DNA from: Acetobacteraceae bacterium
GTDB taxonomy: Bacteria > Pseudomonadota > Alphaproteobacteria > Acetobacterales > Acetobacteraceae
Assembly (NCBI GenBank): GCA_024280945.1
Contig: JAMXLO010000029.1
Coordinates: 1-64,000 of the forward strand
Direction: 5' to 3'
DNA length: 64,000 nt
The notes under the pieces: model-generated
The model's input: only the letters and a program-made list of their open reading frames with translations
Databases searched by the model: none
What the model was told of the DNA's origin: nothing
Shown: in pieces, positions 14,968-64,000 of the stretch
How the letters are laid out: every line of letters starts with the position of its first letter
Position numbering within the stretch: the first letter of the stretch is position 1
Made by a program: the position numbers and the translations under genes

Positions 14968-14978
14968 CAGCGCGAACT

Positions 14979-15069: not shown

Positions 15070-15094
15070 ATCCCCTCGGTCGATACCACTCTTC

Positions 15095-16300: not shown

Positions 16301-16570
16301 GGAATCCTCCCTGCGGCTTTGGCGACAGTATCGCCGCTATGCAGAGCAGGCATCAAGACGCGGGAGTTGACCCACTCGACAGGTGGGCGATGACACTGGC
16401 AGAGGAGAGCAGGACTGATGTTCCGGGCGTGATGCAATCACGAGAAACCACAGCCGACGTAGGCGACGATCAGCGCCAGACGAGACTACAACGGCCGCAG
16501 TGGCTCCCCGCTAACCTTCACACCGCCTGTGGCATAGGGGTACGCCCCGGCACACCGCCGCCGTCGCCCG

Positions 16571-16927: not shown

Positions 16928-17113
16928 AGTGAAGCGACTCGCTATACGGGTTTCCACTGGGCGCCGACGGAATCACGGTTTGTGCGAAATAACAAGCATT
17001 TCTTGCGCGCAGGGCGGGGATTCTGGGGACTTTCCAACGTCTCAGGCTGTGGCATGGTGTGTCCGCCATGCGTTTGCACCGCAACCCATAAGCAAGCACC
17101 GAAAGGCAGAACC

Positions 17114-17836: not shown

Positions 17837-17846
17837 GAGCCGCATC

Positions 17847-18461
17847 ATGGCAGATATTGAATGCTTCTTCGATTGCTCGAGTCCGTGGACCTATTTCGCC
17901 TTCCATAATCTGCTGCTGATGCAGAAGGAGCTCGGGATCGACGTCGCATGGCGGCCGATCCTGGTCGGTGGCGTGTTCAACGCGGTCAATCCGAGTGTTC
18001 ACAACTCGCGCGAGAAGCCAGTCCCGGCGAAAGTCGCCTACAACAAGAAAGACCAGCAGGACTGGGCACGCCATCTCGGCATACGTATGCACTATCGCCC
18101 CACCGTGTTCCCGGTGAACAGCGTCCGCGCCATGCGCGGGTGCATTCTGCTGGAGCCGGAAGGCAAGCTGGTGCCGTTCGCCCTGGCGACGTTCGAGGCC
18201 TATTGGGGCGACGACAAGGATATCTCGCAGGTCCCGGTGTTGCGCGAGATCTGCGGCAAGGTCGGCATCGATGCTGAACAATTCCTGGCGGGCATCGAGC
18301 GCCAGGAGATCAAGGACAAGCTGCGTGCCATCACCCAAGAGTTGATCGACCGTGGTGGGTTTGGCTCCCCCACCATGTTCGTCGGCGGTGATGACATGTA
18401 TTTCGGCAACGACCGCATGCCGCTGATACGCGAGGCCGTGCTGCGCCGCCGCCGGGCATGA
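17847..18461 (+). CDS. 2-hydroxychromene-2-carboxylate isomerase family protein (DsbA/GST-kappa fold)
   Basis: A 204-aa thioredoxin-fold protein. FFDCSSPWTYFAFHNL at the N-terminus carries the SPxxYxA motif in which Ser is the glutathione-activating residue, and GSPTMFVGGDDMYFGNDR at the C-terminus is the typical end of this family. Characterised members isomerise 2-hydroxychromene-2-carboxylate in naphthalene breakdown using glutathione. Here the partner GST and enoyl-CoA hydratase suggest a related step on another ring or enoyl compound. AGGAG lies upstream of the ATG; the stop overlaps the next ATG (ATGA). Confidence 0.88.
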   Translation: MADIECFFDCSSPWTYFAFHNLLLMQKELGIDVAWRPILVGGVFNAVNPSVHNSREKPVPAKVAYNKKDQQDWARHLGIRMHYRPTVFPVNSVRAMRGCILLEPEGKLVPFALATFEAYWGDDKDISQVPVLREICGKVGIDAEQFLAGIERQEIKDKLRAITQELIDRGGFGSPTMFVGGDDMYFGNDRMPLIREAVLRRRRA

Positions 18462-49490: not shown

Positions 49491-49827
49491 CATCTGCTCC
49501 CTCATGCGTCGTTGTGTTCGCTGCCGTTTGGTCTTGGCGACCAGTAAGCTGCCCCTTGCAACTGCAGTCCATTCAGGCTTGCTCTCTGGCTGATGCGCAA
49601 GGTTCGCTGGAATATCCTTGCCTGGCACATACTCGGCGTCCACTGTGACAAGCGGCCGCAAGGCCATGTAGATTGCGCGTTTGATGCGGCGTCCGACACG
49701 CCAGCAACGATCTGTATCGGCACCCACGCCTGGCGGATTCTTTGGCGCGGGTTCGTCCACGGCGCGCTCGACCATGTTGCAAAGCCGGATGGCCGGATCA
49801 TCTTCTGTGATCCCAGCAACAGATCAC
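49491..49827. other. 337-bp gap upstream of the molybdoenzyme gene
   Basis: The frame of the oxidoreductase stays open to 49775, but this part encodes no signal peptide or recognised domain (LVTVDAEYVPGKDIPANL is the most protein-like piece). It is either an N-terminal extension or the 5' region with the promoter. No other gene is seen. Confidence 0.4.
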
Positions 49828-51414
49828 TCAGGACTTGCTGACGTTCCAGAACACGGGCACCGCGCCTTTCAGGACCCCGGTCAGGTTGCTGCGATACGCT
49901 GAGGGAGGCAGGTACTGGCCAAGCGGCACGAACGGCACCGTCTCAAACGCACGCATCTGAATCGCTGCGTCCAGCTTCTTACGGTCGGCATCTTCGGTGG
50001 CGTCCATCCAGGAGTTGCGCAACGCCTCCATCTTCTCGTCACTCGGCCAACCGAACCAGGCATCCTTGCCGTTGCCGCGGAGGTTCGTCGCGAAGACCGG
50101 ATCGCGGTATTCAGCCGCCGGTGCACCGTACGGGAAGAGCGACCAGCCGCCTTTGTCCAGCGGCTCCTTGCTGGTGCGGCGTTGCACCACCGTTCCCCAA
50201 TCGAGCGACTGCTCGTCCAGGTTGATCCCGACGCGCCGGAGCGATGCGGCGACCACACTGCTCATGGCATCATAGAAGGTCTGATCTGTGGGATGCATCA
50301 GCACGACGCGCTCGCCGCCGTAGCCGGCCTGCTTCAGCATTGCCTTGATCGCGTCGGCATCCGGCCGCTTGCGCACCGCGTCCATGCCGGCATCGTTCGC
50401 CGATGGCGTGCCGGGCAGGAAGTAGCCGACGGGCGCGCGGTAAAGGCTCTTCTCCTCCCCCATCACCGCTGTCATCACCTCGACCTGATCGATCGCAGCA
50501 AGGATGGCACGGCGCGCGCCTTCACTGGCGGTTGGACCTTGCAGACAGTTCGGCCGCAGTCCGCCGAATGTGCCGTAGATGTCGATGGGCGCGACGGTCA
50601 CGCCCGACGCCTTGCGCAGCATCGGCAGCAGGTCCGGCACCGGCGAGTCCAACCAGTCGACCTCACCGGCTGTCAGCGCGTTGGCCGCAGTGGCGGCATC
50701 GGGAATGATGCGCCACTCGACGCGGTCGACCAGCACCCGATAGCCGCCGGCGGCAAAGCTGGCCGGCTCTGGCCGCGGATTGTAACGCTCATTCTTCTGG
50801 AACACTGCCAGGTTGCCGGCAACGTATTCATTGGCGACCCAGCGGAACGGGCCACTGCCAATGACCTCGGGAACCTGCTTGAACGGATCGGTCTGTGCCA
50901 GGCGCTCCGGCATGATCGCCGGTGTCGGCTGTGTCTTCGCCAGCGCATAGGGCAGCGATGCAAATGGCTTGTGCAGCCGGAAAACGATGGTCCGGTCGTC
51001 ATGCGCTTCCAACGCGTCCAGCCGGGCCGCAATCGTCTGGCCGATCGCGTCGCGCTTCATCCAGCGTTGCAGCGAGGCCACGCAGTCGCGCGCCAGCACC
51101 TTCTCGCCGTCATGGAACGCCAGCCCGTCTCGCAGGCGCATCGTCCAGCGCAGCCCGTTGTTCTCTACCTGATGGCCCTCGACCATCTGCGGCCGCGGAT
51201 CGAGCTGCTCGTTGCGGCCATAAAGCGTTTCGAACACCATCGCGGCATAGTTGCGGGTGACCAGCGCGGTGGTCCAAACCGGATCAAGACTGGTAAGATT
51301 GGCCTGCGGCACATGGATCAGCATCTTCGCCTTGGCGCCAATGGCGGGCTGGGCAAGCGATGTGCGGCCAAACGCGGCAATAGCCGCTCCCCCAAGGAAG
51401 CTGCGGCGTTTCAT
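49828..51414 (-). CDS. ABC transporter substrate-binding protein, family 5 (peptide/opine type), Tat-exported
   Basis: A 528-aa periplasmic binding protein. MKRRSFLGGAAIAAFGRTSLAQPA has a twin-arginine RRSFLG motif and ends in AQPA, so Tat export is likely. Family features are SLDPVWTTALVTRNYAAMVFETL (start of the SBP_bac_5 domain), WTMRLRDGLAFHDGEKVLARD and VIGSGPFRWV. GGAGG lies nine bases upstream of the ATG. It is divergent from a second binding protein and the permease operon, with 258 bp between starts, and probably feeds the same permeases. The ligand could be an oligopeptide, glutathione, nickel complex or opine. Confidence 0.9.
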   Translation of the reverse strand: MKRRSFLGGAAIAAFGRTSLAQPAIGAKAKMLIHVPQANLTSLDPVWTTALVTRNYAAMVFETLYGRNEQLDPRPQMVEGHQVENNGLRWTMRLRDGLAFHDGEKVLARDCVASLQRWMKRDAIGQTIAARLDALEAHDDRTIVFRLHKPFASLPYALAKTQPTPAIMPERLAQTDPFKQVPEVIGSGPFRWVANEYVAGNLAVFQKNERYNPRPEPASFAAGGYRVLVDRVEWRIIPDAATAANALTAGEVDWLDSPVPDLLPMLRKASGVTVAPIDIYGTFGGLRPNCLQGPTASEGARRAILAAIDQVEVMTAVMGEEKSLYRAPVGYFLPGTPSANDAGMDAVRKRPDADAIKAMLKQAGYGGERVVLMHPTDQTFYDAMSSVVAASLRRVGINLDEQSLDWGTVVQRRTSKEPLDKGGWSLFPYGAPAAEYRDPVFATNLRGNGKDAWFGWPSDEKMEALRNSWMDATEDADRKKLDAAIQMRAFETVPFVPLGQYLPPSAYRSNLTGVLKGAVPVFWNVSKS

Positions 51415-51672
51415 TCTGGACGTCCTCCAATGCGTGAGCCATCGATCGACGTGATGTTCCAGCAGACCACCCGTGGGGAGGTCAAACCTGACGCTCACCG
51501 CTGGCACCGTCGGCCGGCGCGGAGTTGAGTCCGCCGGCCGGCGGAGGTCCGCAGTTTTGCCGGCACGTCCCTTCGTGTTCGCCGCACTGATTGACACCGT
51601 CAGTCCCCTGGCCAAACACTTCGCCAAGGCGCAGCCTCAGCAAGAAGCGCGATGGTCGCGGGAGGAAATCCT

Positions 51673-53631
51673 TTGAACCGCATAACCGCAAGACCGGGAA
51701 TCTACGGTTTCGCAACGGAACTGGCGGCCATCGGCCTGATGCTGACGATCGTACAGCACACGCCGGCCGCCGCGCAGAGTGGCAAGTATCATGAGGCCCC
51801 GGCGCTCGCCGAGCAGGTGAAGGGAGGCAAGTTGCCGCCAGTGGAGCAGCGTCTGCCGGAACAGCCGCTGGTGGTCCCCGTGGTCGAGAAGGTCGGAGAG
51901 TACGGCGGCGTCTGGCGACGCGCGTTCCTGGGTCCGGCCGATGCCAACAACTATGTGCGCGTCGCCTACGACAGCCTGTTCCGGTTCTCTCCCGATGGCG
52001 CGGACATCGAGCCCAAGATCGCCGTCGGTGCGAAGGCATCCGCCGACTACAAGACCTGGACGATCCTGTTGCGCAAGGGCGCGAAGTGGTCCGACGGCGT
52101 GCCGTTCACCGCCGATGACATCGTCTTCTGGTACAAGAACATCCTACTGAACAAGGACCTGATGCCGTCACTGCCGACCTGGATGCGCAACGCCGACGGC
52201 ACCGCGGCGAAGGTGGAGAAGGTGGACGACACCACGGTGCAGTTCACCTACGACCGTCCCGCCACGTTGTTCCTTTCGGAGGTCGCCAACCAGGATGGCC
52301 CCGACCTGCAGTATGCGATGTTTCAGCCGGAGCATTATCTGAAGAAGTTTCACCCGGCCTACGTCTCGAAGGAGGAACTCGACCGCCTGGTACAGGCTGG
52401 GAGCTTCAAGTCCTGGACCGAACTGTTCCTGTCGCGCGCCACACCGGCGCAGAACCCGGAACGTCCGACAATGGCGGCGTGGATGCCGGTGAGCCGGGTC
52501 AGCGATCCGGTGTTCACCATCCGGCGCAATCCGTACTACATCGGCGTCGACAAGGACGGGAACCAGCTGCCGTATATCGATGAGGTGCGGTTCACCTACT
52601 TCGCCGACCAGCAGGCACTGAACCTGGCCGCCATCGCCGGCGACTTCGACATGCAAGAGCGCCACATCCAGATGACCAACTACCCAGTGCTCAAAGAGCA
52701 GGAACGCACCGGCAAATACCGGGTGATCACCTGGCCGACCTTTGGCGGGTCGGATGCGGTGATCGCGCTCAACGCCACCTACGCGGCCGATCCGGAGATC
52801 GGCAAGCTGATGGCGACGAAGGATTTTCGTATCGCATTGTCGTACGCGATCAATCGCGATGAGATCAAGGAGTCGGTGTTCCTGGGTCTGGGCGAGGCGC
52901 GACAGGCCGTGGCGGCGCCTTGGCATCCTTACTTTCCTGGCAAGGAATGGGCCACGAAGTACACCGAGTTCGACCGTGACCGGGCGAACAAGATGCTGGA
53001 CGCTCTTGGACTGACGAAGCGCGATCCGCAAGGCATTCGGCTGATGGCCAATGGCAAGCCAGCAACCATCGAGATCAGTGTCGTGCCCGCATTCGGCGCC
53101 TGGCCCGACGTGGCGCAGCTCGTTGCCAAGGACTGGGAGGCGGTCGGGGTCAAGACCATCGTGCAAATCCGCGAGCGGGCGCTGCATTTCAACATGCGCC
53201 CCGCGAACCAGCTGATGGCCGAGATCTGGAACGAGGACACCACGGCGTTCCCGTTCACCGGAGGATCGAAGTTCGATCCGCGCAACGGCGCGCTGTCCCA
53301 GTTGACGGTCGGCCCGCTGTATTCGCGCTGGCTGGATACGAAAGGCAAGGAGGGCGTCGAACCGACCGAGCCGATCAAGCGCATCATGCAGCTGATCGAC
53401 ACGGCCCGAACCGTGGGGCACGATGGGCAGGTGCAGGCGGCGCAGGAGCTGTTCCGCATCTGGGCGGACAATGTCTATGAGATCGGCACCATCGGGCTGA
53501 CGCCGATGGTCCAGGGCGTCGTCGTCATCAACACCAAGATGCACAACGTTCCGACGACCCTCGGCAATGATTGGCCGCTGCGCAGTCCTGGCAACGCGCG
53601 CACCGAGCAGTTCTTCTTCTCGTCGAAGTGA
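51673..53631 (+). CDS. ABC transporter substrate-binding protein, family 5 (peptide type)
   Basis: Start TTG 51673 is chosen because GGAGG lies six bases upstream; the in-frame ATG at 51652 lacks such a site. The product is 652 aa with a signal segment (FATELAAIGLMLTIVQHTPAAAQ). This is the long form of family 5 binding proteins: YDSLFRFSPDGADIEPKIA, WTILLRKGAKWSDGVPFTADDIVFW and IALSYAINRDEIKE are clear. It delivers its ligand to the permeases encoded next; the stop overlaps the next GTG (GTGA). The size and layout resemble TT_C0383-type or microcin C-type binding proteins, but the ligand is unknown. Confidence 0.9.
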   Translation: MNRITARPGIYGFATELAAIGLMLTIVQHTPAAAQSGKYHEAPALAEQVKGGKLPPVEQRLPEQPLVVPVVEKVGEYGGVWRRAFLGPADANNYVRVAYDSLFRFSPDGADIEPKIAVGAKASADYKTWTILLRKGAKWSDGVPFTADDIVFWYKNILLNKDLMPSLPTWMRNADGTAAKVEKVDDTTVQFTYDRPATLFLSEVANQDGPDLQYAMFQPEHYLKKFHPAYVSKEELDRLVQAGSFKSWTELFLSRATPAQNPERPTMAAWMPVSRVSDPVFTIRRNPYYIGVDKDGNQLPYIDEVRFTYFADQQALNLAAIAGDFDMQERHIQMTNYPVLKEQERTGKYRVITWPTFGGSDAVIALNATYAADPEIGKLMATKDFRIALSYAINRDEIKESVFLGLGEARQAVAAPWHPYFPGKEWATKYTEFDRDRANKMLDALGLTKRDPQGIRLMANGKPATIEISVVPAFGAWPDVAQLVAKDWEAVGVKTIVQIRERALHFNMRPANQLMAEIWNEDTTAFPFTGGSKFDPRNGALSQLTVGPLYSRWLDTKGKEGVEPTEPIKRIMQLIDTARTVGHDGQVQAAQELFRIWADNVYEIGTIGLTPMVQGVVVINTKMHNVPTTLGNDWPLRSPGNARTEQFFFSSK

Positions 53632-54614
53632 CCCGCTACATAGTTCAGCGGTTGCTGTTGCTGCCGTTCCTGCTGCTGGTCTACTCGTTCGTCATCTTCG
53701 TGATCATCCAGGCGCCGCCTGGGGATTTTCTGACGGCCTATGTGGCGACCCTGTCGGCTTCGGGAACGTCGGTCAGCGCCGAACAGATCGAGGCGCTGCG
53801 TCATACCTATGGGCTGGATCAGCCATTCGTCGTGCAGTACCTCTATTGGCTGCGAAACCTGCTGGCCGGTAATTTCGGCGTTTCGCTGGAATACCACCGG
53901 CCGAATGCAGAGCTGATCGAAGAACAATTGGGCCTGACCGTGGCGTTGGCGGTCATGTCCTTTGTGCTCACGTGGCTCATCGCGGTCCCGGCCGGGATCT
54001 ATTCCGCCACTCACCGTCGATCCGTTCTGGACCACCTGCTCACGGTTATCAACTACATCGGAGTGGCAACGCCGAACTTCATGCTGGCCCTGATCCTGAT
54101 GTGGATCGCGTTCGCGTATTTCGGCATCAGCGTCACTGGGTTGTTCTCGCCCGAATACGCCGATGCACCGTGGAGCCTGGCGAAACTCGGCGATCTGCTG
54201 GCGCATCTCTGGCTGCCGGCGCTGATCCTGGGCATTGCCGGGACCGCGCGTCTGACCCGGATCATGCGCGCCAACCTGCTGGATGAGCTGAACAAGCCCT
54301 ACGTCGTGACGGCGCGCGCCAAGGGATTGCGCGAGTGGCGACTCGTGCTTCGCTACCCTGTGCGGCTGGCGCTCAATCCGCTGGTCAGCACGATTGGATG
54401 GTATCTGCCGCAGCTGTTCTCCGGCAGCCTTATCGTGGCGACGGTGATGAACCTGCCGAACATCGGGCCGCTGCTGCTGCGCGCACTGGTCAACCAGGAC
54501 ATGTACCTCGCCGGAGGCATCCTGCTGATCTATTCGTTCCTGACCATTGTTGGCACGCTGCTCTCCGACATCGCTCTGGCGATGATGGACCCGCGTATCC
54601 GCATGGGGGCGTGA
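53628..54614 (+). CDS. Oligopeptide-type ABC transporter permease (DppB/OppB-like)
   Basis: A 328-aa membrane protein starting at GTG 53628, overlapping the binding-protein stop. It has the DppB layout: an N-terminal helix (YIVQRLLLLPFLLLVYSFVIFVI), QAPPGDF, LDQPFVVQYLYWLRNLLAGNFG, and the ATPase-contact loop YVVTARAKGLREWRL (EAA-type). About six helices are seen. A TGATG overlap links it to the next permease gene. With it, it forms the inner-membrane channel. Confidence 0.93.
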   Translation: MTRYIVQRLLLLPFLLLVYSFVIFVIIQAPPGDFLTAYVATLSASGTSVSAEQIEALRHTYGLDQPFVVQYLYWLRNLLAGNFGVSLEYHRPNAELIEEQLGLTVALAVMSFVLTWLIAVPAGIYSATHRRSVLDHLLTVINYIGVATPNFMLALILMWIAFAYFGISVTGLFSPEYADAPWSLAKLGDLLAHLWLPALILGIAGTARLTRIMRANLLDELNKPYVVTARAKGLREWRLVLRYPVRLALNPLVSTIGWYLPQLFSGSLIVATVMNLPNIGPLLLRALVNQDMYLAGGILLIYSFLTIVGTLLSDIALAMMDPRIRMGA

Positions 54615-55753
54615 TGCGGGCGCCATCGATCGCTTCTGATGCCACCGTATCCGACGTGCAGGTTACCGCGGCCGAGGAAAGAATCGCCGTTGCATCCAAT
54701 TGGCAACTGGTGTGGTGGCGCTTCCGCAAGCACCATCTGGCGCTGTTCAGTGCCGGTCTGCTGATCTGCCTGTACTGCGTCGTGATCTGCCCGGCATTCT
54801 TCGCCACCCAGGATCCACAGCGGACCGATGCGCGGCAGGCATTCATTCCGGTACAGACGCTGCATCTGTTCGATGGCGGCTGGAATCCATGGATCCCAGC
54901 GACCGTCGGCAAGCGCAATCCGGTCACGCTGCGAATGGAGTGGACGACCGATCCGCAGCGGAAGATCCGTGTGAGCTTCTTCACGCGTGGCGAACCTTAC
55001 CGGCTGTTCGGCCTGTTCGACGCGAACATCCACCTGCTCGGCGCGACAGATCCCACGCAGCGGATCTTCCTGCTGGGCTCCGACCGGCTTGGCCGAGACC
55101 AATGGTCGCGCATCATGTACGGCACGCAGACCTCTATGACGGTGGGCCTCGTCGCGGTCACGCTGAGTGTGATCTTCGGCGTGGTGCTGGGCGGAATTTC
55201 CGGCTATTTCGGTGGCTTCATCGACCTGGTGATCCAGCGCCTGATCGAGCTACTACAATCTGTTCCCACCATACCGATCTGGCTCGCTTTATCCGCGGCA
55301 CTGCCGCGCGACTGGACGCCGATCCAGGTGTTCTTTGCCATCACGGTCATCCTGTCGCTGGTCGGCTGGACCACGCTGGGCCGCGAAGTGCGCGGGCGAT
55401 TTCTCGCGTTGCGCGAGGAGGACTTCGTGCTCGCCGCCCGTCTCGCTGGTGCCAGGCGGATGCGCATCATTCTGCGCCATATGGTGCCCACCTTTCTCAG
55501 CCACATCATCGCTACGAGCTCGCTGGCGATTCCCGTGATGATCATCAACGAGACATCATTGTCCTTCCTCGGCCTCGGCATCAGGCCCCCGGCGATAAGC
55601 TGGGGCGTGTTGTTGCAGGAGGCGCAGAACATCCAGACCCTGGCGCTGGCGCCGTGGCTGCTGATCCCCGGGCTGGTTGTCATCGTCGCGGTGCTGGCGT
55701 TCAATCTTGTAGGCGATGGCCTGCGTGATGCATCAGATCCGTATAGTCATTGA
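54614..55753 (+). CDS. Oligopeptide-type ABC transporter permease (DppC/OppC-like)
   Basis: A 379-aa permease starting at ATG 54614-54616, one base inside the preceding stop. It has the OppC layout: an N-terminal soluble part, helix 1 (LALFSAGLLICLYCVVICPAFF), a periplasmic loop longer than in DppC (about residues 65-150), GTDRLGRD-like LGSDRLGRDQWSRIMYG, and the contact loop DFVLAARLAGARRMRII. ETSLSFLGLGIRPP near the end is typical. It partners the preceding permease. Confidence 0.93.
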   Translation: MRAPSIASDATVSDVQVTAAEERIAVASNWQLVWWRFRKHHLALFSAGLLICLYCVVICPAFFATQDPQRTDARQAFIPVQTLHLFDGGWNPWIPATVGKRNPVTLRMEWTTDPQRKIRVSFFTRGEPYRLFGLFDANIHLLGATDPTQRIFLLGSDRLGRDQWSRIMYGTQTSMTVGLVAVTLSVIFGVVLGGISGYFGGFIDLVIQRLIELLQSVPTIPIWLALSAALPRDWTPIQVFFAITVILSLVGWTTLGREVRGRFLALREEDFVLAARLAGARRMRIILRHMVPTFLSHIIATSSLAIPVMIINETSLSFLGLGIRPPAISWGVLLQEAQNIQTLALAPWLLIPGLVVIVAVLAFNLVGDGLRDASDPYSH

Positions 55754-55777
55754 CAGTTTCGTTGCGGCAGTAGCGAC

Positions 55778-56794
55778 GTGACGATCGATGCCGAACCGCT
55801 GCTCCGCGTGCGCGATCTGCGCGTGTCGTTCCAACTGGACGAAGGGACGGTACGCGCAGTCGATGGCGTCAGCTTCGACGTGTTTCCCCGCCAGGTCGTG
55901 GGCATCGTCGGTGAAAGCGGCTGCGGCAAGAGCGTGACGATGCGGGCCGTGCTGCAGCTGATCGATCCGCCCGGCCGCATCACCGGGGGCGAGATCACCT
56001 ACCGTCAGAATGGCAGGCCGATCGACCTTGCGCGCGTCTCTCCACGCAGCCGGCAGATGCGTGACCTGCGCGGTGCGGAGGTTGCGCTGATTCCGCAAGA
56101 ACCGATGGCGGCTTTCAGTCCGGTGCACACGGTCGGCGCACAGATCATCGAGGCGATCATGTTGCACGAACGGCTTGGCCGCGGGGAGGCGCGCGCCAGG
56201 ACCGTGGAGCTGTTCCGCGATGTCGGCATCTCCATGGCGGAGCAGCGTGTCGATGCGTATTCCTGGCAGCTGTCCGGCGGATTGCGGCAGCGGGCGATGA
56301 TCGCGATGGCGCTTTCATGCCGGCCACGCCTGCTGATCGCCGATGAACCGACCACTGCAATCGATGTGACGACGCAGGCGCAGATCCTGGCTCTGCTGCG
56401 CGAGCTGCAGCAGAAATACGACACCGCGATCATCTTCATCACACACGATCTCGGCGTGATTGCCCAGATGGCAAATTATGTGGTGGTGATGTATCTCGGA
56501 CGCGTCATGGAAGAAGGCCCCGTGGACGAAATCTTCCACGCGCCGAAGCATCCCTATACACGCGCTCTGCTGCGTTCGATTCCCAGCCTGCAGACCGAGA
56601 CCCGCGCCGCACTGCCGGTGATTGCCGGCACTCTGCCACATCCATTCAATCGCCCGCCTGGCTGTCCTTTCCATCCGCGCTGCGAGGACATTCGGCGTGG
56701 CTATTGCGATGTGGCCGTTCCCGCTTTGCATGCGCTGGGACCGCGGCGCGCCGTGAGCTGCTTCCTGCACAGCGATGCCGCGGAACCGGCATGA
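55778..56794 (+). CDS. Oligopeptide-type ABC transporter ATP-binding protein (DppD/OppD-like)
   Basis: A 338-aa ATPase from GTG 55778. Walker A is GESGCGKSV, the signature LSGGLRQRAMIAMAL, Walker B LLIADEPTTAIDV, followed by IIFITHDLGVIAQMA. The C-terminal oligopeptide-family extension carries Cys residues (GCPFHPRCEDIRRGYC), which in relatives bind an iron-sulfur cluster. The gap to the permease gene is 24 bp and the 3' end overlaps the next gene by four bases (ATGA). No strong ribosome binding site is visible. Confidence 0.93.
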   Translation: MTIDAEPLLRVRDLRVSFQLDEGTVRAVDGVSFDVFPRQVVGIVGESGCGKSVTMRAVLQLIDPPGRITGGEITYRQNGRPIDLARVSPRSRQMRDLRGAEVALIPQEPMAAFSPVHTVGAQIIEAIMLHERLGRGEARARTVELFRDVGISMAEQRVDAYSWQLSGGLRQRAMIAMALSCRPRLLIADEPTTAIDVTTQAQILALLRELQQKYDTAIIFITHDLGVIAQMANYVVVMYLGRVMEEGPVDEIFHAPKHPYTRALLRSIPSLQTETRAALPVIAGTLPHPFNRPPGCPFHPRCEDIRRGYCDVAVPALHALGPRRAVSCFLHSDAAEPA

Positions 56795-57795
56795 CAGCCC
56801 CGCTGATCGATGTTCGCGGACTGCGCAAGTTCTTTCCGATCGCCAAGGGCATGCTCGGCCGCATCACCGGCCATGTGCGTGCCGTCGACGACGTGAGCTT
56901 CTCGGTGCAGGAGGGTGAAACCCTCGGGCTAGTGGGTGAAAGCGGCTGCGGCAAGACGACCACGGCGCGCTGCATCCTGCGGGCGATCGATCCGACGGAT
57001 GGGCAGGTGCTGTACCGCACCAGCGGCGGCAAGATTGTCGATCTGGCGCCGATGTCGCCGGCAGAGCTCGCGCCGTTCCGCAAAGAGATCCAGATGATCT
57101 TTCAGGATCCGTTCGGTTCACTCAATCCGCGCATGACGCTGTTCGACAACGTCGGTGAGCCGCTGCTGGTGAATGGCATGCGCAACCGCCGCGAACGCAT
57201 GGACCGCGTGGCCGAACTGCTGCGCCTGGTCGGGCTGCGGCCGGAGTTCATGCACCGTTTCCCGCATGCATTCAGCGGCGGCCAGCGCCAGCGCATCGGC
57301 ATCGCTCGCGCGCTGGCGACGAGCCCACGACTCGTGGTAGCCGATGAACCGGTGTCTGCCTTGGATGTATCCGTGCAGGCACAGGTGCTGAACCTGCTGC
57401 TGGAGCTGCAAGCGCGCCTGCGGCTGACGTTCCTGTTCGTAGCGCACGACCTGTCCGTGGTGCGGCATATCTGCGATCGCGTGGCGGTGATGTATGTGGG
57501 GAGACTGGTTGAGCTGGCACCCACCGATGCGGTGTTCAGCCGGCCACGCCATCCATATACCGCCGCGCTGATGCGCGCCGTTCCGGTGCCTGATCCGCGC
57601 GTGTCGGGTGCTGATGGGATCCTGAAGGGCGAGGTCCCGAGCCCAGCGTCGCCGCCATCCGGCTGCTATTTTCACCCGCGATGCACGCTTGCTCAAGAAC
57701 GCTGCCAGCGGGAGGCGCCAGCGTTGCAGGAAGTGACCCCCGGGCATTTTGCGCGATGCCACTTTGCCGCCGAACTTGATCTGGCGATGCGCTGA
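56791..57795 (+). CDS. Oligopeptide-type ABC transporter ATP-binding protein (DppF/OppF-like)
   Basis: A 334-aa ATPase starting at ATG 56791 inside the end of the preceding gene. Walker A GESGCGKTTTARCI, IFQDPFGSLNPRM (the OppF hallmark after Walker A), signature FSGGQRQRIGIARAL, Walker B LVVADEPVSALDV and a FVAHDLSVVRHI switch region are present. The C-terminus has the Cys-containing extension GCYFHPRCTLAQERC. It ends the five-gene transporter operon that begins at 51673. Confidence 0.94.
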   Translation: MTAPLIDVRGLRKFFPIAKGMLGRITGHVRAVDDVSFSVQEGETLGLVGESGCGKTTTARCILRAIDPTDGQVLYRTSGGKIVDLAPMSPAELAPFRKEIQMIFQDPFGSLNPRMTLFDNVGEPLLVNGMRNRRERMDRVAELLRLVGLRPEFMHRFPHAFSGGQRQRIGIARALATSPRLVVADEPVSALDVSVQAQVLNLLLELQARLRLTFLFVAHDLSVVRHICDRVAVMYVGRLVELAPTDAVFSRPRHPYTAALMRAVPVPDPRVSGADGILKGEVPSPASPPSGCYFHPRCTLAQERCQREAPALQEVTPGHFARCHFAAELDLAMR

Positions 57796-57932: not shown

Positions 57933-58760
57933 ATGCCGCTTGATATCGCTACACGACGCCAGCAGACGACGACGGCGGAACTGCATTATCTGATACGCAC
58001 GGCAGAAAGGCCGGCGCGCTACGTAAAGGAACCGCCACCTGGTGTGCCGAGATGGAACGGCATTGACGACCCACACACTGTGCTGATCGAAGACGCACGC
58101 GGTCGCGAGTCAGAGTTCACCTTGGACCGCAATGGCTTTGCGTTGATCAAGGCGCCGACGTCTGTCGCCAACTTCTATGACCCCGACGAGATCAAATCGG
58201 TTTATTACCCAGAGGTCGAACAGCTGCTGCGCGAAACGCTCGGTGCATCGCGTGTCGTCGTCTTCGATCACAATGTGCGCAACGGGGGACGCAGCGACCT
58301 TCCTCAGCCTTCGCGCAGGGTGCATAACGACCATACCATCAATTCAGCGCCGCGACGGGTGCGTGACCATCTTGGAGCCGAGGCCGAAGAGCTGCTGAAA
58401 CATCGGTTCGGCATCGTGAACGTCTGGCGGCCGATTCGTGGGCCAGTGCTGGATTCGCCGCTTGCGCTGTGCGATGCGCGCAGCTTTACCGACGACGACC
58501 TGATCGCCAGTGATCTGGTTTATCAGCATGTCCGTGGGGAGACCTCCTCGGTCGAGTTCAAACCGGGGCACCGGTGGTACTATTTCTCGGAGCAGCAACC
58601 TGACGAAGTGATTCTTATCCGCGTCCATGACAGCGCCACCGATGGGCGCGCCAGGCTGTCGTTCCATACATCATTCGAGAACCCGCTGGCGCCGAAAGAC
58701 GCACCGCCGAGAGAGAGCATCGAGGTCCGCTCCCTGGTTTTCTTCCCGCCGAACGCCTGA
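57933..58760 (+). CDS. CmcJ/NvfI-family non-haem iron oxygenase
   Basis: A 275-aa protein starting at MPLDIATRRQ, with a purine-rich GGGAG upstream. VHNDHT gives His131 and Asp133, and SFHTSFENP gives His245: the H-x-D...H set expected for Fe(II)/2-oxoglutarate-type enzymes. Other family features are NVWRPIRGPVLDSPLALCD and YYFSEQQPDEVILIRVHDS. Characterised relatives act in cephamycin methoxylation (CmcJ) and as a fungal endoperoxygenase (NvfI); the substrate here is unknown. It lies 137 bp after the transporter operon on the same strand and ahead of an LLM monooxygenase gene, so it probably oxidises the imported compound. Confidence 0.85.
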   Translation: MPLDIATRRQQTTTAELHYLIRTAERPARYVKEPPPGVPRWNGIDDPHTVLIEDARGRESEFTLDRNGFALIKAPTSVANFYDPDEIKSVYYPEVEQLLRETLGASRVVVFDHNVRNGGRSDLPQPSRRVHNDHTINSAPRRVRDHLGAEAEELLKHRFGIVNVWRPIRGPVLDSPLALCDARSFTDDDLIASDLVYQHVRGETSSVEFKPGHRWYYFSEQQPDEVILIRVHDSATDGRARLSFHTSFENPLAPKDAPPRESIEVRSLVFFPPNA

Positions 58761-58766
58761 CCGCGA

Positions 58767-58792
58767 GCCGGCGAGCCATCAGGCTCGCCGGC
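58767..58792 (+). terminator. Hairpin after the CmcJ/NvfI-family gene
   Basis: GCCGGCGAGCC (58767-58777) and GGCTCGCCGGC (58782-58792) form a perfect 11-bp stem with a 4-base ATCA loop, seven bases after the stop codon. No T-run follows, so it is a strong hairpin without the full features of an intrinsic terminator. Confidence 0.6.
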
Positions 58793-58914
58793 CATGCCAT
58801 TCGCCGCCGGACGCCCCAAGGATGGTGTTCGATACACTGCGCAACGCGGCTTTCAGCGCTGGGCATGGTGAGAGCTTGCCCTGGCGAGCTCGGTTGACGC
58901 AAAGCCGGGCTCTT

Positions 58915-59238
58915 TCATTTATACCATTTGCGCCCACGTATTGTTCGGATCATCAGGATTACGATGCCGAGAATACTTCTGAAGATAAGTATAGCGACGG
59001 TCAGTTGTAACCACAGTCCGAAATTTCCGATTGTCGACTCAAGGCGATCCCCCCAAGGGTATGGAAGCTGCGAGGAGCCACTCTCGACTAACCTGTCCAT
59101 GCTTCTTTTCCACCAGGTAAGGTACTCAGGTTTGTGAAGCCAAAGATAGGCAGAGCCGCAGAGAACGGCGAGAGCAGTCCAAAAGCGAAAGAAATGAACC
59201 CGAAGCCACGCCCAACCAACTGAAAGAGCTTGCCTCAT
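58915..59238 (-). CDS. Small two-helix membrane protein
   Basis: A 107-aa protein with two hydrophobic segments, near residues 17-35 (FFRFWTALAVLCGSAYLWL) and 75-98 (LWLQLTVAILIFRSILGIVILMI), separated by a polar loop and ended by a basic tail (RTIRGRKWYK). No family is recognised. No good ribosome binding site precedes the ATG at 59236-59238. Base composition is lower in GC than in its neighbours, and it is the only minus-strand gene in the 51.6-64 kb block. It could be a recent insertion. Confidence 0.45.
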   Translation of the reverse strand: MRQALSVGWAWLRVHFFRFWTALAVLCGSAYLWLHKPEYLTWWKRSMDRLVESGSSQLPYPWGDRLESTIGNFGLWLQLTVAILIFRSILGIVILMIRTIRGRKWYK

Positions 59239-59440
59239 CGACAGTCGCTCGGCCCCTCAGGCGTGATACGGATTAAGCCACCGGGCTGCCACCAGCCTGG
59301 GAGCAGCCCAGCGCACTCCGCTCTGTGCGCGTCCGGCCAGAATCATTACTCCAGCTGAAAGCAGACGGCCACACCGCTTGGCGTTGACGAACTCGTACTC
59401 GTCAGCACAATCGCGTACCGACAGGTATCGGAGGAACGCC

Positions 59441-60736
59441 ATGCTCAAGCCCATCATGATCATGTATCCCGTGGTTCCCGCGCATGATGAAGATGAGCGG
59501 GCCGCGCTGCGGCCGATCGGACGTAACCGAGAGCGATACCAAGCTGCCATCTCCGGCATGACCGAGATCATTCAGGCTGCGGATGACATAGGATTCTGGG
59601 GTGCTGCCACCCCCGAGCATCACTTCTGGTCGGAGGGGTATGAGGTGGCGCCCTCTCCAGGAGCTACCAATGCCTACTGGCTGGCCAAGACGAAGCACAT
59701 CCACATTGGACCACTCGGCTACGTAATGAGCACACAGAATCCGATCAGGGTGGCCGAGGAAGTTGCAGTCATCGACCACCTTTCGAAGGGCCGCACCTTC
59801 GTCGGCTTTGCCCGCGGCTACCAATCACGGTGGACCAACACGCTGGGCCAGCACTTCGGCACGCGCGCGACGAAGTCGCCTGATGCCGCAGTCTACAATG
59901 CGCAGACGCTGCAGGCCGGCTTCTCGCAGGAAACTCAGCTGCAGAGAGACAAGGAAGACGACACGCATAACCGCGCAGTATTCGAGGACAATGTCGAGTT
60001 GGTGGTGAAGGCCTGGACGCAGGAGAGCTTCACTCACAAGGGTGTCGCCTGGCATGTCCCCTTTCCGTACGACACGGGGATCGTGGATTGGCCGCTCGCC
60101 CGCGCTGGCGTCACGCAGAGACTTGGCGCTCCCGGCGAAGTGGATGCTCATGGTGTGTGGCGCAGAGCATCGGTGGCGCCTGCGCCATATACGAAACCTC
60201 ATCCAAAAGTGTTTGTCGCGGGCTCGGGCAGCCCCGACACCATCGAGTTCTGCGGCAAACACGGTTTCGTGCCAACTTATTTCGCCTCGATTGCCGCCGC
60301 TGGGCCGCTGTCCGAACGCTACCGCAGTGTCGCGGCGAAGCACGGACACAACTTCGCTCCGGGGCAGAACCAGTGCCTTGTGCGCTGGCTGCAGATCGGC
60401 AAGACCGAGGAAGATGCCCTGAACCGTATCCGTGCCTGGGACCTCGATATCTGGAAGAATTTTTATGCCGCGATGGGCCGCCGCAAGGTGGACGGCGACG
60501 ACATCTTTGGCTCCTTGGTCAATTCAGGCCTGTTCGTGTTCGGGACTGTCGACAGCGTGCGACGCCAGCTTGTCGAGCAGTGGAAAACGCTGCCGGGCGA
60601 GCATATAGCGCTGGTCAATCACTATGCGCAGATGCCAAAGGATGCGGTCATAGAGACGATTGAGATATTCCAGCGTCAGATAAAGCCGGCACTGGATGAG
60701 GTGATTGACAGCACATTCCGCGTCGCAGCGGAATAG
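59441..60736 (+). CDS. LLM-class flavin-dependent oxidoreductase (luciferase-like monooxygenase)
   Basis: A 431-aa TIM-barrel enzyme with GGAGG six bases upstream of the ATG. ADDIGFWGAATPEHHFWSEGYE (about 47-68) matches the N-terminal LLM motif with the EHH residues. IGPLGYVMSTQNPIRVAEEVAVIDHLSKGRTFVGFARGY is the characteristic middle region, and PKVFVAGSGSPDTIEFCGKHG leads to the flavin phosphate site. It uses reduced flavin and oxygen to oxidise its substrate. It starts a run of four catabolic genes on the plus strand. The substrate is not readable. Confidence 0.9.
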   Translation: MLKPIMIMYPVVPAHDEDERAALRPIGRNRERYQAAISGMTEIIQAADDIGFWGAATPEHHFWSEGYEVAPSPGATNAYWLAKTKHIHIGPLGYVMSTQNPIRVAEEVAVIDHLSKGRTFVGFARGYQSRWTNTLGQHFGTRATKSPDAAVYNAQTLQAGFSQETQLQRDKEDDTHNRAVFEDNVELVVKAWTQESFTHKGVAWHVPFPYDTGIVDWPLARAGVTQRLGAPGEVDAHGVWRRASVAPAPYTKPHPKVFVAGSGSPDTIEFCGKHGFVPTYFASIAAAGPLSERYRSVAAKHGHNFAPGQNQCLVRWLQIGKTEEDALNRIRAWDLDIWKNFYAAMGRRKVDGDDIFGSLVNSGLFVFGTVDSVRRQLVEQWKTLPGEHIALVNHYAQMPKDAVIETIEIFQRQIKPALDEVIDSTFRVAAE

Positions 60737-60774
60737 TCTCCACTGCTACCAAGAAGAAACGGAAGGAAACACGG

Positions 60775-62103
60775 ATGGACGCCCTTGAGGTCCGCACCAT
60801 GGTGAAGGTGTCACGGCGGCTGATACCCTTCGTCATCATCTGCTACTTTGTCGCATATCTCGATCGTGTGAATCTCAGCTTCGCTGCGCTGGAGATGAAT
60901 AAGGATCTCGGGTTCACCTCTACCGTCTATGGCATCGGTGCCGGTGCCTTCTTTATCACCTATTTCCTGCTCGAGACGCCGTCCAACCTGGTGCTTCTGA
61001 AGATGGGTGCGCGACTCTGGATCGCCCGGATCATGTTCACGTGGGGCATACTCTCCGGCGCTATGGCATTCATCTGGAACGAATGGAGCTTCTATACAGT
61101 GCGCTTCCTCTTCGGCGCGGCTGAGGCGGGCTTCTTTCCCGGGATCCTGTTCTATCTGACACTGTATTTCCCTGCCGCATACCGCGCGCGGATGGTCAGC
61201 ATGTTCATGGTGGCAATCCCGGTATCCGCGGTTATCGGCGCACCGCTTTCCACCTCGATTCTTTACGCGGACGGGTTCCTAGGGCTCAGAGGGTGGCAGT
61301 GGGTGTTCATCGGTGAAGCGATTCCGGCACTGATCCTGTCTGTCGTTACGTGGTTCTACCTGACGGATGACCCGGCAGAGGCACGCTGGCTGGAGCCTGA
61401 TGAGCGGAACTGGCTGGTCAAGCGGCAGGAAGCCGAGGTACGCCAACGTGAAGCTGCCCACTCGATGTCGGTGTGGCAGGTGCTGCGCAATCCGCGTGTC
61501 ATTGCACTCGGCATTGCCGGCTTCGGCATCGCCTATGAGATCTATGGCATGACCTATTTCCTGCCGCAGATCGTCAAGCAGTTCGGCTTGACCAATATGC
61601 AGACCGGGCTCGTCTCGGCACTACCGTTCGCGGTGGGTGCAGTGGGCATGGTTTGGTACGGCAAACGCTCGGATCGTGTGATGGAGCGACGCAGCCACAC
61701 GGCCGTCACGTTCCTGATCGCCGCCGCAGGCCTGGTGCTGACGGCACTCACGCCAAACCCCTATTTCCGCCTCTTCACTCTGTGTGTCGCTTCGTTCGGC
61801 ATGTTCTCGGTACTGCCAGTGTTCTGGTCGATGCCCACCGCGTTCCTGAGCGGCGCGGCAGCGGCGGCAGGGGTGGCCTACATCAACTCGATCGCCAATA
61901 TAGCCGGCTTCGTTGGCAACTATGTCATGGGCTGGTTGCGCGACCTGACTGGCAGCTTTGACAGTGGTCTGCTCGTCATTGCTGCTGTCTGCAACGTCGC
62001 GGCGCTTGCGACGCTATGCATCCATCATGACAAGGAGCTTGAGCAGGCACCGGCTCCTGAGGAGACACCACCAGTGCCAGGACGGGTCGCTGAGATCGTG
62101 TGA
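60775..62103 (+). CDS. MFS transporter of the anion:cation symporter (ACS) family
   Basis: A 442-aa carrier with 12 hydrophobic segments. RLIPFVIICYFVAYLDRVNLSFAALEMNKDLGF is the standard ACS opening (with DRVN), followed by RFLFGAAEAGFFPGILFYL and LTDDPAEARWLEPDER, both typical of organic-anion carriers for phthalate, hexuronate or tartrate. AAGGA lies upstream. The 38-bp gap after the LLM gene suggests one operon. It would take up an organic acid related to the pathway. Confidence 0.92.
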   Translation: MDALEVRTMVKVSRRLIPFVIICYFVAYLDRVNLSFAALEMNKDLGFTSTVYGIGAGAFFITYFLLETPSNLVLLKMGARLWIARIMFTWGILSGAMAFIWNEWSFYTVRFLFGAAEAGFFPGILFYLTLYFPAAYRARMVSMFMVAIPVSAVIGAPLSTSILYADGFLGLRGWQWVFIGEAIPALILSVVTWFYLTDDPAEARWLEPDERNWLVKRQEAEVRQREAAHSMSVWQVLRNPRVIALGIAGFGIAYEIYGMTYFLPQIVKQFGLTNMQTGLVSALPFAVGAVGMVWYGKRSDRVMERRSHTAVTFLIAAAGLVLTALTPNPYFRLFTLCVASFGMFSVLPVFWSMPTAFLSGAAAAAGVAYINSIANIAGFVGNYVMGWLRDLTGSFDSGLLVIAAVCNVAALATLCIHHDKELEQAPAPEETPPVPGRVAEIV

Positions 62104-62163
62104 GGCTCTGACCTGCCGTCGCTTGTGCGACGTTGCGCCACCGACAAAGAAGTGGAGGAACAA

Positions 62164-62973
62164 ATGGCCACCGAAGTGTCGTTATTCGGTTTGCAGGACA
62201 AGAAGGCCGTCGTTATCGGCGGCGGCCAGGGCATGGGTGAAAGCACCTCGCGTTACCTGGCGCATGCGGGGTGTGATGTTGCTGTCATCGACATCGAACG
62301 CGAACGTGCGGAGCGCGTCGCCAGCCTGGTCAATGAACTCGGTCGGCGAGGGATACCCATCGTCGGCGACGTACTCGATGATGCGCAGATTCCAACGATC
62401 GTCGCGTCAGCCGAGCAGCAACTCGGCAAGGTGGACGTCATGGTGTCGATCGTCGGTGCTGCGGTTTGGGGGGCCCTGCTGGAGACAACTGCCGGCATCT
62501 GGGACCAGCAGATGCATCTCAACCTGCGTTATTTCTTCCTGTGCGCGCGGGAGGTTGCGGCGACCATGATAAGGCGGGGCGATGCGGGGGCTATCGTCGG
62601 TATCGCCTCGGTGGATGGGCAGCGTTCGGCCCCCATGCGCGGTGCCTACGGTGCAGCGAAAGCCGGATTGATCAGCCTGGTGCAGACCATGGCTGTTGAG
62701 TGGGCGCCGCATAACATACGGGTCAATGCTGTTGCGCCCGGGCATATCGTCACGCCGCGTCTTTACGATACTCCGCAACGGGCTGAAGGCTATGCCAACA
62801 GTCTGCTGCCGGTGCGGCGACGAGGCGTGACTGACGACATCGGCAAGGCGGCGCTGTTCCTCGTCTCTGATCTTGCCAGCTATATCACTGGCACGACTCT
62901 CGACGTTGACGGTGGCCTGTTGGCCGCCAATCTGTTTCCTGGAGGATTTCTCAGGGACAATCGTCCCGGCTGA
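62164..62973 (+). CDS. SDR family oxidoreductase (classical)
   Basis: A 269-aa protein from ATG 62164, with GGAGG five bases upstream. VIGGGQGMGE near residue 17 is a Gly-rich coenzyme loop, VDVMVSIVGAAV replaces the usual NNAG, VGIASVDGQ has the catalytic Ser, and YGAAK gives the active Tyr and Lys. VDGGLLAANLF near the end is usual. Unlike the SDR at 10488 this one has a full active site. It probably oxidises an alcohol or reduces a ketone in the pathway of its neighbours. Confidence 0.9.
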   Translation: MATEVSLFGLQDKKAVVIGGGQGMGESTSRYLAHAGCDVAVIDIERERAERVASLVNELGRRGIPIVGDVLDDAQIPTIVASAEQQLGKVDVMVSIVGAAVWGALLETTAGIWDQQMHLNLRYFFLCAREVAATMIRRGDAGAIVGIASVDGQRSAPMRGAYGAAKAGLISLVQTMAVEWAPHNIRVNAVAPGHIVTPRLYDTPQRAEGYANSLLPVRRRGVTDDIGKAALFLVSDLASYITGTTLDVDGGLLAANLFPGGFLRDNRPG

Positions 62974-63041
62974 TCGCTCGTGCCTCCCAGATCAGTCGAT
63001 TTCGTGAGCGGTCTCAACCTTATTGGCAGGAGAGGCAGGCC

Positions 63042-63770
63042 ATGGCTTACGAGTTCTTCTACTGGCCGGAGATCCAGGGACGCGGCGAGTTCGTCCGCCT
63101 GGCATTGGAAGATGCAGGTGTGCCATTTGTCGACGTGGCGCGCGGGTCGGAGAGCGAGGGACGCAGCGTTCCGGCCATGCTGGCCCTCATGCAGGGCGAA
63201 GGCACATCACACATCCCGTTTGCTCCACCGTTCCTGCGCGATGGCGATATGATTGTCAGCCATACAGCGGTGATCCTGCTGTACCTGGGCGGGCGGATCG
63301 GCCTCGCGCCTACCGATGAAGACGGCCGGCTATGGACGCATCAAATACAGCTGACGATCACCGACATCGTCAAGGAAGTGTATAACTCCCACCATCCGAT
63401 CGACGAGGACAAGTGGTTCCACGAACAGAAGGATGAAGCAATCGCGCGTGCCGCAATCTTCCGCAGAGACCGGATGCCAAAGTTCCTTGGTTGGTTCGAG
63501 CGGATCCTTCAGGCAAATCCCGCAGGAGCCGGCCATCTGGTTGGCAGCTCCGTCACCTATGCTGATCTGTCCTTGTTCCAGCTGATCGAGGGATTGCATT
63601 TCGCATTTCCTCTCGCGGCCAAGCGAGAGTTGGCGAAGCTGCCGCGCGTGACTGCTCTGCACAGAGCAGTGGCGGAACGACCGCGAGTGAAGGCCTATCT
63701 GGCGAGCGAACGGCGCGTACCGTTCAAGGAGACAGGGATCTTCCGCCGCTACCCGGAGCTGGATGGTTAG
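63042..63770 (+). CDS. Glutathione S-transferase family protein
   Basis: A 242-aa cytosolic protein. MAYEFFYWPEIQGRGEFVRLALEDAGVPF is the thioredoxin-like N-terminal part with Tyr7 at the site used by sigma/alpha-type enzymes. HIPFAPPFLRDGDMIVSHTAVILLYL has the cis-Pro and the glutathione Ser, and VTYADLSLFQLIEG lies in the C-terminal helical domain. AGGAG lies upstream. It follows the SDR gene by 68 bp. It may detoxify or open a reactive intermediate. Confidence 0.9.
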   Translation: MAYEFFYWPEIQGRGEFVRLALEDAGVPFVDVARGSESEGRSVPAMLALMQGEGTSHIPFAPPFLRDGDMIVSHTAVILLYLGGRIGLAPTDEDGRLWTHQIQLTITDIVKEVYNSHHPIDEDKWFHEQKDEAIARAAIFRRDRMPKFLGWFERILQANPAGAGHLVGSSVTYADLSLFQLIEGLHFAFPLAAKRELAKLPRVTALHRAVAERPRVKAYLASERRVPFKETGIFRRYPELDG

Positions 63771-63869
63771 TTCGGGAAGTTCTCGTCGCATGTCGCCGAG
63801 ATTGTCGGCCCCTTGTCTGGACGAACGCGCGGCGTGACACTGACACAAAGCAATCGAGGAACCCGAAAC

Positions 63870-64000
63870 ATGGCCAACGAATTCGACCTCGTCATCCGCG
63901 GCGGCACCATCATGGACGGGAATGGTGGAGCGCCGTTCTGCGGCGATGTCGCTGTCAGTGGCGGCTGCGTCGCCGAGCTCGGCAAGGTAGCGGGTCGCGG
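63870..64000 (+). CDS. N-acyl-D-amino-acid deacylase family amidohydrolase, N-terminus only
   Basis: The gene runs off the right edge. The 43 visible codons, MANEFDLVIRGGTIMDGNGG onward, align closely with the N-terminus of the deacylase at 8763 (MAAEFDLIIRNGTVVDGTGR). The metal-binding His residues lie beyond the window. GAGGAA lies upstream of the ATG. It follows the GST gene by 99 bp, so an amide-cleaving step probably belongs to this catabolic cluster. Confidence 0.82.
   Translation, partial: MANEFDLVIRGGTIMDGNGGAPFCGDVAVSGGCVAELGKVAGR

Follow-up and report, generated by a model that had tools for sequence, protein, structure and literature searches.

What does an iron oxygenase from a family named after an antibiotic-synthesis enzyme do directly behind the genes of a solute importer? 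This question is raised by a stretch of 64,000 nucleotides from an Acetobacteraceae bacterium (hereafter the window), which comprises bases 1–64000 of a contig running to 64684, in a genome of 6.42 Mb that is 99% complete. Near its end lies a gene for an oxygenase of the CmcJ/NvfI family, and upstream of it, at 51652–57795, an importer operon with an SBP_bac_5-type substrate-binding protein (SBP) (Table 1). The answer that we favour, tentatively and at nearly an even chance, is that importer and oxygenase form one unit, in which an Fe(II)/2-oxoglutarate oxygenase would oxidise an imported organosulfur compound for sulfur scavenging. An earlier note on this DNA, starting at the first base of the oxygenase gene (57933), had proposed a different, seven-part pathway. 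Genes were called with a codon-usage script trained on the window, and many names in the lists of neighbours were assigned by eye.

The oxygenase matches the NCBIfam model of the CmcJ/NvfI family (NF041278) with 315.6 bits against a cut-off of 80, and among PDB sequences it matches NvfI (E 1e-38) and CTB9 (E 5e-31). Residues H131, D133 and H245, as well as R260, the arginine of the PPRES motif, are invariant in all 118 relatives collected, so the iron triad is intact. The three triad residues align to positions 155, 157 and 270 of the chain in the NvfI entry, which would be 135, 137 and 250 on the assumption of 20 additional residues in the chain; the text of the NvfI paper gives the triad as His135-His137-Asp250, with the residue letters ordered otherwise than in our alignment. 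The AlphaFold model (pLDDT 95.9) has the NvfI-like double-stranded beta-helix fold and superimposes on NvfI (7de2) with Z 36.3 and an rmsd of 1.8 over 261 residues. CTB9 follows at Z 34.6 and the subsequent rows lie near Z 11, in a VIA-align structure list from which the absence of a family rules out nothing. At E 0.001 the protein matched no Pfam family, the TauD family PF02668 included. Judged from sequence and model, a functional iron oxygenase is to be expected, which by analogy with its family would use 2-oxoglutarate.

Relatives of the family are found at E 1e-40 in 69 of the 385 sampled genomes of the class. When each species was represented by one genome, scanning yielded 67 oxygenase relatives, 26 of which (loci L003–L028) are at least 75% identical to the window protein over most of its length and are called the clade below. 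The fungal enzymes NvfI and CTB9 and the streptomycete CmcJ have the family model and the iron triad in common with the window protein, and the first two also its fold; however, all three work in natural-product biosynthesis, whereas members of the clade often stand beside importers and sulfur genes. It is very improbable that the window enzyme is a biosynthetic oxygenase like these three. Family membership favours such a role, but by eye no synthase or scaffold gene was found within ±4 genes among the neighbours listed or in the top 25 Pfam families, and on this ground the biosynthetic role was rejected. The earlier suggestion of a catabolic CmcJ/NvfI member is supported in so far as the enzyme probably serves catabolism or nutrient scavenging: importers and oxidative enzymes surround its clade, and among the same listed neighbours and Pfam families no biosynthetic core gene was visible by eye.

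By anatomy, the end of the window probably consists of two units. The importer genes overlap by up to 7 bp or stand up to 24 bp apart and the oxygenase comes 137 bp later, while the genes for the luciferase-like monooxygenase (LLM), the MFS carrier, the SDR oxidoreductase, the glutathione S-transferase (GST) and the deacylase-type protein are 38 to 99 bp apart. Between the end of the oxygenase gene (58760) and the start of the LLM gene (59441) lie 680 bp without a confident plus-strand gene. The hairpin in this gap is weak evidence for a terminator, because the scanned stretch has four such sites where shuffled sequences have 2.1 (sd 1.4). The GC content of the gap (0.56) is somewhat low, and that of the LLM–MFS junction is equally low. 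The minus-strand open reading frame (ORF) within the gap matched nothing in Pfam, NCBIfam or PHROGs, and its GC3 contrasts with values of 0.69–0.84 in three neighbours; its product is membrane-like, and it may be a remnant. The genes from LLM to deacylase are probably transcribed separately and are unneeded for the proposed function. The earlier note had listed its genes as lying in one direction; all those named are indeed on the plus strand, but this wording hid the 680-bp break.

The importer and the oxygenase are found together a second time. Among the 26 clade loci, the full block of SBP, two permeases, two ATPases and oxygenase recurs in L024 alone, with identities of 74–86% for the importer proteins and 78% for the oxygenase. 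Downstream of this block, on the opposite strand, are genes read as cysN, cysD and cysH. SBP_bac_5 importers also occur near other members of the clade and the family (L009, L029 and L216).

To count sulfur genes around the clade, the near-copies L019, L020, L023, L026 and L027 were removed, leaving 21 loci; L067–L069, L032, L065, L066 and L252, in which no CmcJ gene was called, and L259, a copy of L009, were dropped from the counts as well, and the same-genome pairs L003/L024 and L007/L013 were kept. Genes for NMT1-type (sulfonate-type) SBPs, TauD, the O-acylhomoserine sulfhydrylases MetY/MetZ, CysDH and SfnB-like proteins within ±5 genes were taken as strict sulfur genes. At least one of these was present at 12 of the 21 clade loci but at only 2 of 20 control regions (p = 0.0017) or 3 of 43 pooled controls (p = 2e-5). 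When LLM genes were counted too, the figures were 15/21 and 3/20 (p = 0.0003); the LLM type by itself was found near the CmcJ gene at seven clade loci and in one of the 20 controls. A TauD gene, encoding a separate enzyme, was close by at three clade loci. TctC-type SBPs, which had been considered as further proof of a sulfur link, were rejected as such, with 2/21 clade loci against 4/20 control regions.

The Pfam families of the neighbours gave a similar picture. Within ±4 genes, the 139 clade neighbours included ABC_tran (11), Bac_luciferase (9), BPD_transp_1 (8), NMT1 (8), TctC (5), TauD (4), Cys_Met_Meta_PP (3) and PAPS_reduct (2). The controls were neighbours of arbitrary points in Acetobacteraceae genomes (142 of 160 proteins, with L152, L153 and two L150 proteins left out) and contained TctC four times, Bac_luciferase twice and each of the other listed families at most twice. 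For the nine NMT1-type SBPs that were typed, a part of all those present, the aliphatic-sulfonate SBP was the best model in every case, once above its cut-off. MetZ of L010 and MetY of L022 exceeded their cut-offs, and SsuD was the best model, below its cut-off, for the LLMs of L017 and L114. In L009, of the clade, a SfnG-like LLM, a SfnB-like gene and Ssu-type genes accompany the CmcJ gene, and an SBP_bac_5 gene directly precedes the oxygenase; L216, from the broader family, has the same kinds of genes, and the Sfn matches in both are below their cut-offs. The neighbours of some clade members thus resemble SsuA, SsuD, SfnB and SfnG of the known SsuEADCB and SfnB-SfnG systems, mostly under the curated cut-offs, whereas the window shows none of these four: there the importer is of the SBP_bac_5 type and the LLM a distant one, and SsuD (TIGR03565) was not among the 14 NCBIfam models that this LLM matched at E 0.001.

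Three further clade members (L276, L279 and L281) were read once the sulfur idea existed. In L276, a genome of one contig whose oxygenase is 80% identical to that of the window, the next called gene is a divergent soxC about 1 kb away; its product scores 562.6 bits against a cut-off of 420 and is 35% identical to the SoxC-like protein of the window. It is followed by a small gene read by eye as cytochrome c, and the locus has an Ssu-type importer to one side and, to the other, a second importer of the NMT1 type. In L279 the arrangement of L014 recurs. This arrangement, seen in the Bradyrhizobium loci L014, L019, L020, L023 and L279, has by eye a conserved order of CmcJ, D-2-hydroxyacid dehydrogenase, class II aldolase and two amidases, together with an ABC importer that is SsuA-like, as typed in L014, and a flavoprotein of the fumarate-reductase type, which in L279 exceeds the cut-off of PRK08275.

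A quick tree built from 118 proteins grouped the 30 rows of the clade with four other Acetobacteraceae proteins at 98% SH-aLRT support. The four sister loci (L111, L114, L117 and L118), whose CmcJ proteins are 52–56% identical to that of the window, share a partly conserved set of SfnB-like, TctC, LLM and MetY genes in varying combination. Leaving the window aside, 22 of the other 33 proteins in this 34-row group have strict sulfur genes nearby, against 18 of the remaining 84 proteins. With the hand-labelled window included, although its SoxC-like gene is outside ±5 genes, the count is 23/34 (Fisher p = 3e-6, not corrected for relatedness). More distant betaproteobacterial relatives (48–52% identical) include three annotated records. 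In Caballeronia, LLM, acyl-CoA-dehydrogenase-type, TauD and ABC genes are within five genes of the CmcJ gene, and in Paraburkholderia an aliphatic sulfonate SBP is about 6 kb away. On a Variovorax plasmid (L132, 1446–12554), where sulfur genes are likewise within five genes, the neighbours are a CysB-family regulator, TauD, an LLM, a rhodanese, EpsC and a family 2A encapsulin shell with a cysteine desulfurase cargo. A cyanobacterial encapsulin of this family 2A/cysteine desulfurase kind is described as upregulated in sulfur starvation (PMC8346489). The Variovorax stretch looks like a sulfur-starvation island.

If the importer and the oxygenase serve sulfur scavenging, which kind of compound would they handle? 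ABC systems of this family usually go by the name peptide-type. No curated Opp/Dpp cut-off was reached by the plus-strand SBP (Opp4A, 79 of 650), and the permeases are likewise below theirs (Opp4B, 233 of 450; Opp4C, 257 of 350). The best solved relative of the SBP is a putative oligopeptide-binding protein, 5ipw (E 2e-115), followed by the pectin-binding SPH1118 (E 3e-86) and the alpha-galactoside-binding 6epy (E 7e-31). For SPH1118, a role with pectin is described (PMC9314435). Homologues of the SBP on plasmids (32–37% identical) adjoin genes for carbohydrates or sugar acids, such as galactarate dehydratase, gluconolactonase, glycosidases and 5-deoxy-glucuronate isomerase, in all five annotated neighbourhoods, which are not independent because three share one arrangement; the records H1, H3 and H8 have no annotated features at the matched place. 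The SBP relatives and these neighbourhoods make a peptide less likely than a substrate that is sugar-like or anionic, although the matter is not settled. A peptide cargo was rejected, because no Opp/Dpp cut-off was reached and the SBP relatives are mostly of the carbohydrate type, yet the top solved match remains 5ipw. The N-acyl, D-amino-acid or diketopiperazine substrate that the earlier note had raised is not supported by these relatives, nor, given how common D-aminoacylase homologues are, by the one nearby; the evidence favours organosulfur compounds.

These observations could also mean that the importer and the oxygenase catabolise a sulfur-free sugar acid or carbohydrate-like anion, which the oxygenase would hydroxylate as a carbon source, with the sulfur neighbours being incidental. 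We consider this unlikely. The pectin- and alpha-galactoside-binding proteins among the best solved relatives and the five plasmid neighbourhoods, all of the carbohydrate type, would fit it, but no sugar-catabolic gene was seen to adjoin the importer in the window, and sulfonate-type SBPs, MetY/MetZ and SoxC near clade members with other importers would be left unexplained. The window importer resembles the carbohydrate-type SBP_bac_5 systems (SPH1118 and the galactarate type) in its SBP over most of the length and in the row of SBP, two permeases and ATPases; it differs from them in that an oxygenase follows instead of sugar-acid enzymes.

Sulfur scavenging by Fe/2-oxoglutarate oxygenases is already known: TauD hydroxylates the carbon next to a sulfonate, and the product yields a carbonyl compound and sulfite. 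By analogy with TauD and SqoD, the favoured scavenging function could proceed as follows. The importer would take up an organosulfur compound, probably anionic and, given the relatives of the SBP, perhaps sugar-like, and the oxygenase would then add a hydroxyl group to the carbon beside its sulfonate. The hydroxylated product would break down to a carbonyl compound and sulfite, with cleavage of the C–S bond, the divergent SoxC-like enzyme might deal with the sulfite, and the cell would gain sulfur from the imported compound. The likeness to TauD and SqoD lies in the proposed chemistry and physiological role, and TauD differs in that the window oxygenase has no PF02668 match. The SQ dioxygenase SqoD is described as iron- and alpha-ketoglutarate-dependent and as releasing sulfite (PMC12890257). 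A more specific version, in which the CmcJ/NvfI oxygenase would be a desulfonating dioxygenase acting on a sulfonated sugar or sugar acid imported by the carbohydrate-type SBP_bac_5 system, is improbable in this precise form. If it were true, a family without a Pfam tie to TauD would cleave C–S bonds for sulfur assimilation in alphaproteobacteria.

Several observations weigh against sulfur scavenging. In the window itself, no Ssu-type importer, TauD or SsuD is present among the called genes, and the SoxC-like gene, seven genes away from the oxygenase, is outside the ±5 range and scores below the SoxC cut-off. In the same-genus relative L006 (genome G988, on a 6.7-kb contig), the CmcJ gene has neither an importer nor strict sulfur genes around it. 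Nine of the 21 clade loci are without a strict sulfur gene, some of them on short contigs and some in housekeeping surroundings (L015 and L016), and L281 has none within five genes. The LLM of L028 belongs to the NtaA/DmoA family and that of L012 to another subfamily, so that neither is SsuD, and the importer has sugar-leaning relatives. The seed families for the phmmer searches were picked after seeing the clade's own neighbours, and the controls were not matched per locus. Outside the clade the signal fades, with a strict gene at 6 of 35 loci of distant relatives in the same scan and, in fresh genomes of the class and phylum (39–56% identical), at 7 of 38 loci against 1 of 20 controls (p = 0.16), or 11/38 against 2/20 with LLMs included (p = 0.09). 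The wider CmcJ/NvfI family is therefore mixed, as the out-of-sample sulfur link is weak and not significant.

Such a pattern could also arise if the enzyme were a general-purpose hydroxylase, horizontally transferred into variable catabolic regions in which sulfonate-type importers and LLMs are merely common. This alternative is on the unlikely side but has to be taken seriously. The clade is rare and patchy, being found in 5 of 387 Acetobacteraceae genomes and, within a Bradyrhizobium-type genus, in 7 of 242, yet its members are 75–85% identical across families, and their arrangements change from lineage to lineage; TctC SBPs are no rarer in the controls, and there is little enrichment in the wider family. 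On the other hand, sulfur genes are enriched over controls that were taken mostly from genomes of Acetobacteraceae and other Proteobacteria, and sulfur genes without a role in import (MetZ, MetY, CysDH, SoxC and SfnB-like) recur.

The earlier note had joined seven parts, a peptide-type transporter, the oxygenase, the LLM, the carrier, the SDR, the GST and the D-aminoacylase, into one pathway that would import an N-acyl or cyclic compound, oxidise it and cleave its amide bond. The gene content it listed was borne out by Pfam and NCBIfam family matches, and the shared orientation and the short gaps inside each block agree with a pathway, but between the blocks are the terminator-like hairpin and the 680-bp gap. 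Among the 26 clade loci, the deacylase (64%) and a distant MFS (44%) were found once each, and an orthologue of the window LLM, the SDR and the GST at none (one LLM was 24% identical). Conversely, six LLM orthologues (66–75% identical) were found in 250 genomes of the order; none of their loci, two of which end at contig ends, has a window-like CmcJ, GST, MFS or deacylase gene, and a partner occurs once, an SDR (39%) about 4 kb away. No common gene setting was visible by eye in the six loci, the GST was absent at E 1e-20 from all six genomes, and no LLM was found at E 1e-60 in the same-genus relative G988, which is 73% complete. Among the plasmid matches listed, the best GST was 59% and the best LLM about 30% identical, and one GST neighbourhood was unrelated.

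The nearest arrangement to the seven-part set was found in L116 (genome G057, 7010–15703), where the genes for a CmcJ relative, a deacylase and an MFS carrier (50%, 65% and 55% identical, respectively) are within about 9 kb. A D-aminoacylase gene also lies within three genes of a CmcJ-family gene in L021 and L042, and the LLM type recurs near CmcJ as counted above, which favours a common pathway. A nearby D-aminoacylase says little, however, because the family is common, with 0 to 9 homologues per genome across 12 genomes and six in the organism's own. The SBP, moreover, is below every peptide-importer cut-off. A pathway of all seven parts is accordingly improbable, and as a single stepwise pathway it was rejected on account of the hairpin, the gap and the partners that do not co-occur in relatives; the set looks like ordinary co-location.

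Table 1. Features at the end of the window, with the evidence for each
Feature	Position	Strand	Evidence or remark
SoxC-like molybdopterin enzyme of the sulfite dehydrogenase family	48300..49775	-	PF00174 and PF03404; best NCBIfam SoxC (TIGR04555), 242 bits, cut-off 420
Second SBP_bac_5 substrate-binding protein	49828..51414	- (strand of the SoxC-like gene)	PF00496, 193 bits
SBP_bac_5 substrate-binding protein, probably of the carbohydrate/sugar-acid branch	51652..53631	+	PF00496; 74% identity to the L024 SBP
Importer permease B	53628..54614	+	PF00528, PF19300; 4-bp overlap with the SBP gene
Importer permease C	54608..55753	+	PF00528, PF12911
Importer ATPase D	55778..56794	+	PF00005 and oligo_HPY
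Importer ATPase F	56791..57795	+	PF00005 and oligo_HPY
CmcJ/NvfI-family oxygenase, core of the finding	57933..58760	+	NF041278; NvfI (scores in text)
Terminator-like hairpin 3' of the oxygenase gene	58886..58912	+	10-pair stem, then TTTCATTTAT; consensus match only
107-aa ORF of doubtful reality	58915..59238	-	No family match; GC3 0.53
Weak promoter-like match upstream of the LLM gene	59384–59411		Such matches occur in shuffled sequences too
Luciferase-like monooxygenase (LLM), first gene of a probably separate unit	59441..60736	+	PF00296, 98 bits
MFS organic-anion carrier	60775..62103	+	PF07690; best NCBIfam HpaX, below cut-off
SDR oxidoreductase	62164..62973	+	PF13561, 206 bits
Glutathione S-transferase	63042..63770	+	PF14497
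N-acyl-D-amino-acid-deacylase-type gene (Amidohydro_3), 5' part	63870..64000, on to contig end 64684	+	

The SoxC-like gene points away from the importer operon, and 52 bp separate it from the next gene on its own strand, which encodes a second SBP that is 26% identical to the plus-strand SBP across 123 amino acids. At the other end, the deacylase-type product (271 amino acids up to the contig end) is 64–65% identical to full-length homologues, and the SDR has 48 other matches in its own genome at E 1e-20. Elsewhere in the window, at 8763–18461, there is another catabolic block with a second, full-length D-aminoacylase homologue (57% identical to that of L021) and, by eye, an SDR, a branched-chain-type ABC set, a GST-like protein, a DsbA-like isomerase and an enoyl-CoA hydratase.

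Further CmcJ-family genes were seen in various settings. The window's own genome has a second one (L112, C53:31000–50900; 55%), with a TauD gene two genes away and a MetZ-like gene four genes away. Tandem pairs occur in L205 (G362:C8:44441–46213) and at G628:C55:18436–20226, and the genomes G544 and G621 have six members each. In L029 (2286–11006), a CmcJ-family gene (53%) is followed by two oligopeptide-type ATPases, a two-piece SBP_bac_5-like gene and two permeases, with an LLM-like gene on the opposite strand, an independent set of importer, oxygenase and LLM as named by eye. A CmcJ relative in Geminicoccaceae (L133) is accompanied by ABC transporter genes and a GST of a different type.

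Among the matches listed from open-licence PubMed Central literature, no paper tied the CmcJ/NvfI family to sulfur. Oxidoreductases of this family are annotated in soil- and plant-associated bacteria without a stated role, and the sulfur reading yields a short list of testable substrates. If it is true for even one clade, a further family of Fe/2-oxoglutarate oxygenases would stand beside TauD in sulfur physiology, and the name CmcJ, with its allusion to antibiotic synthesis, would be misleading.

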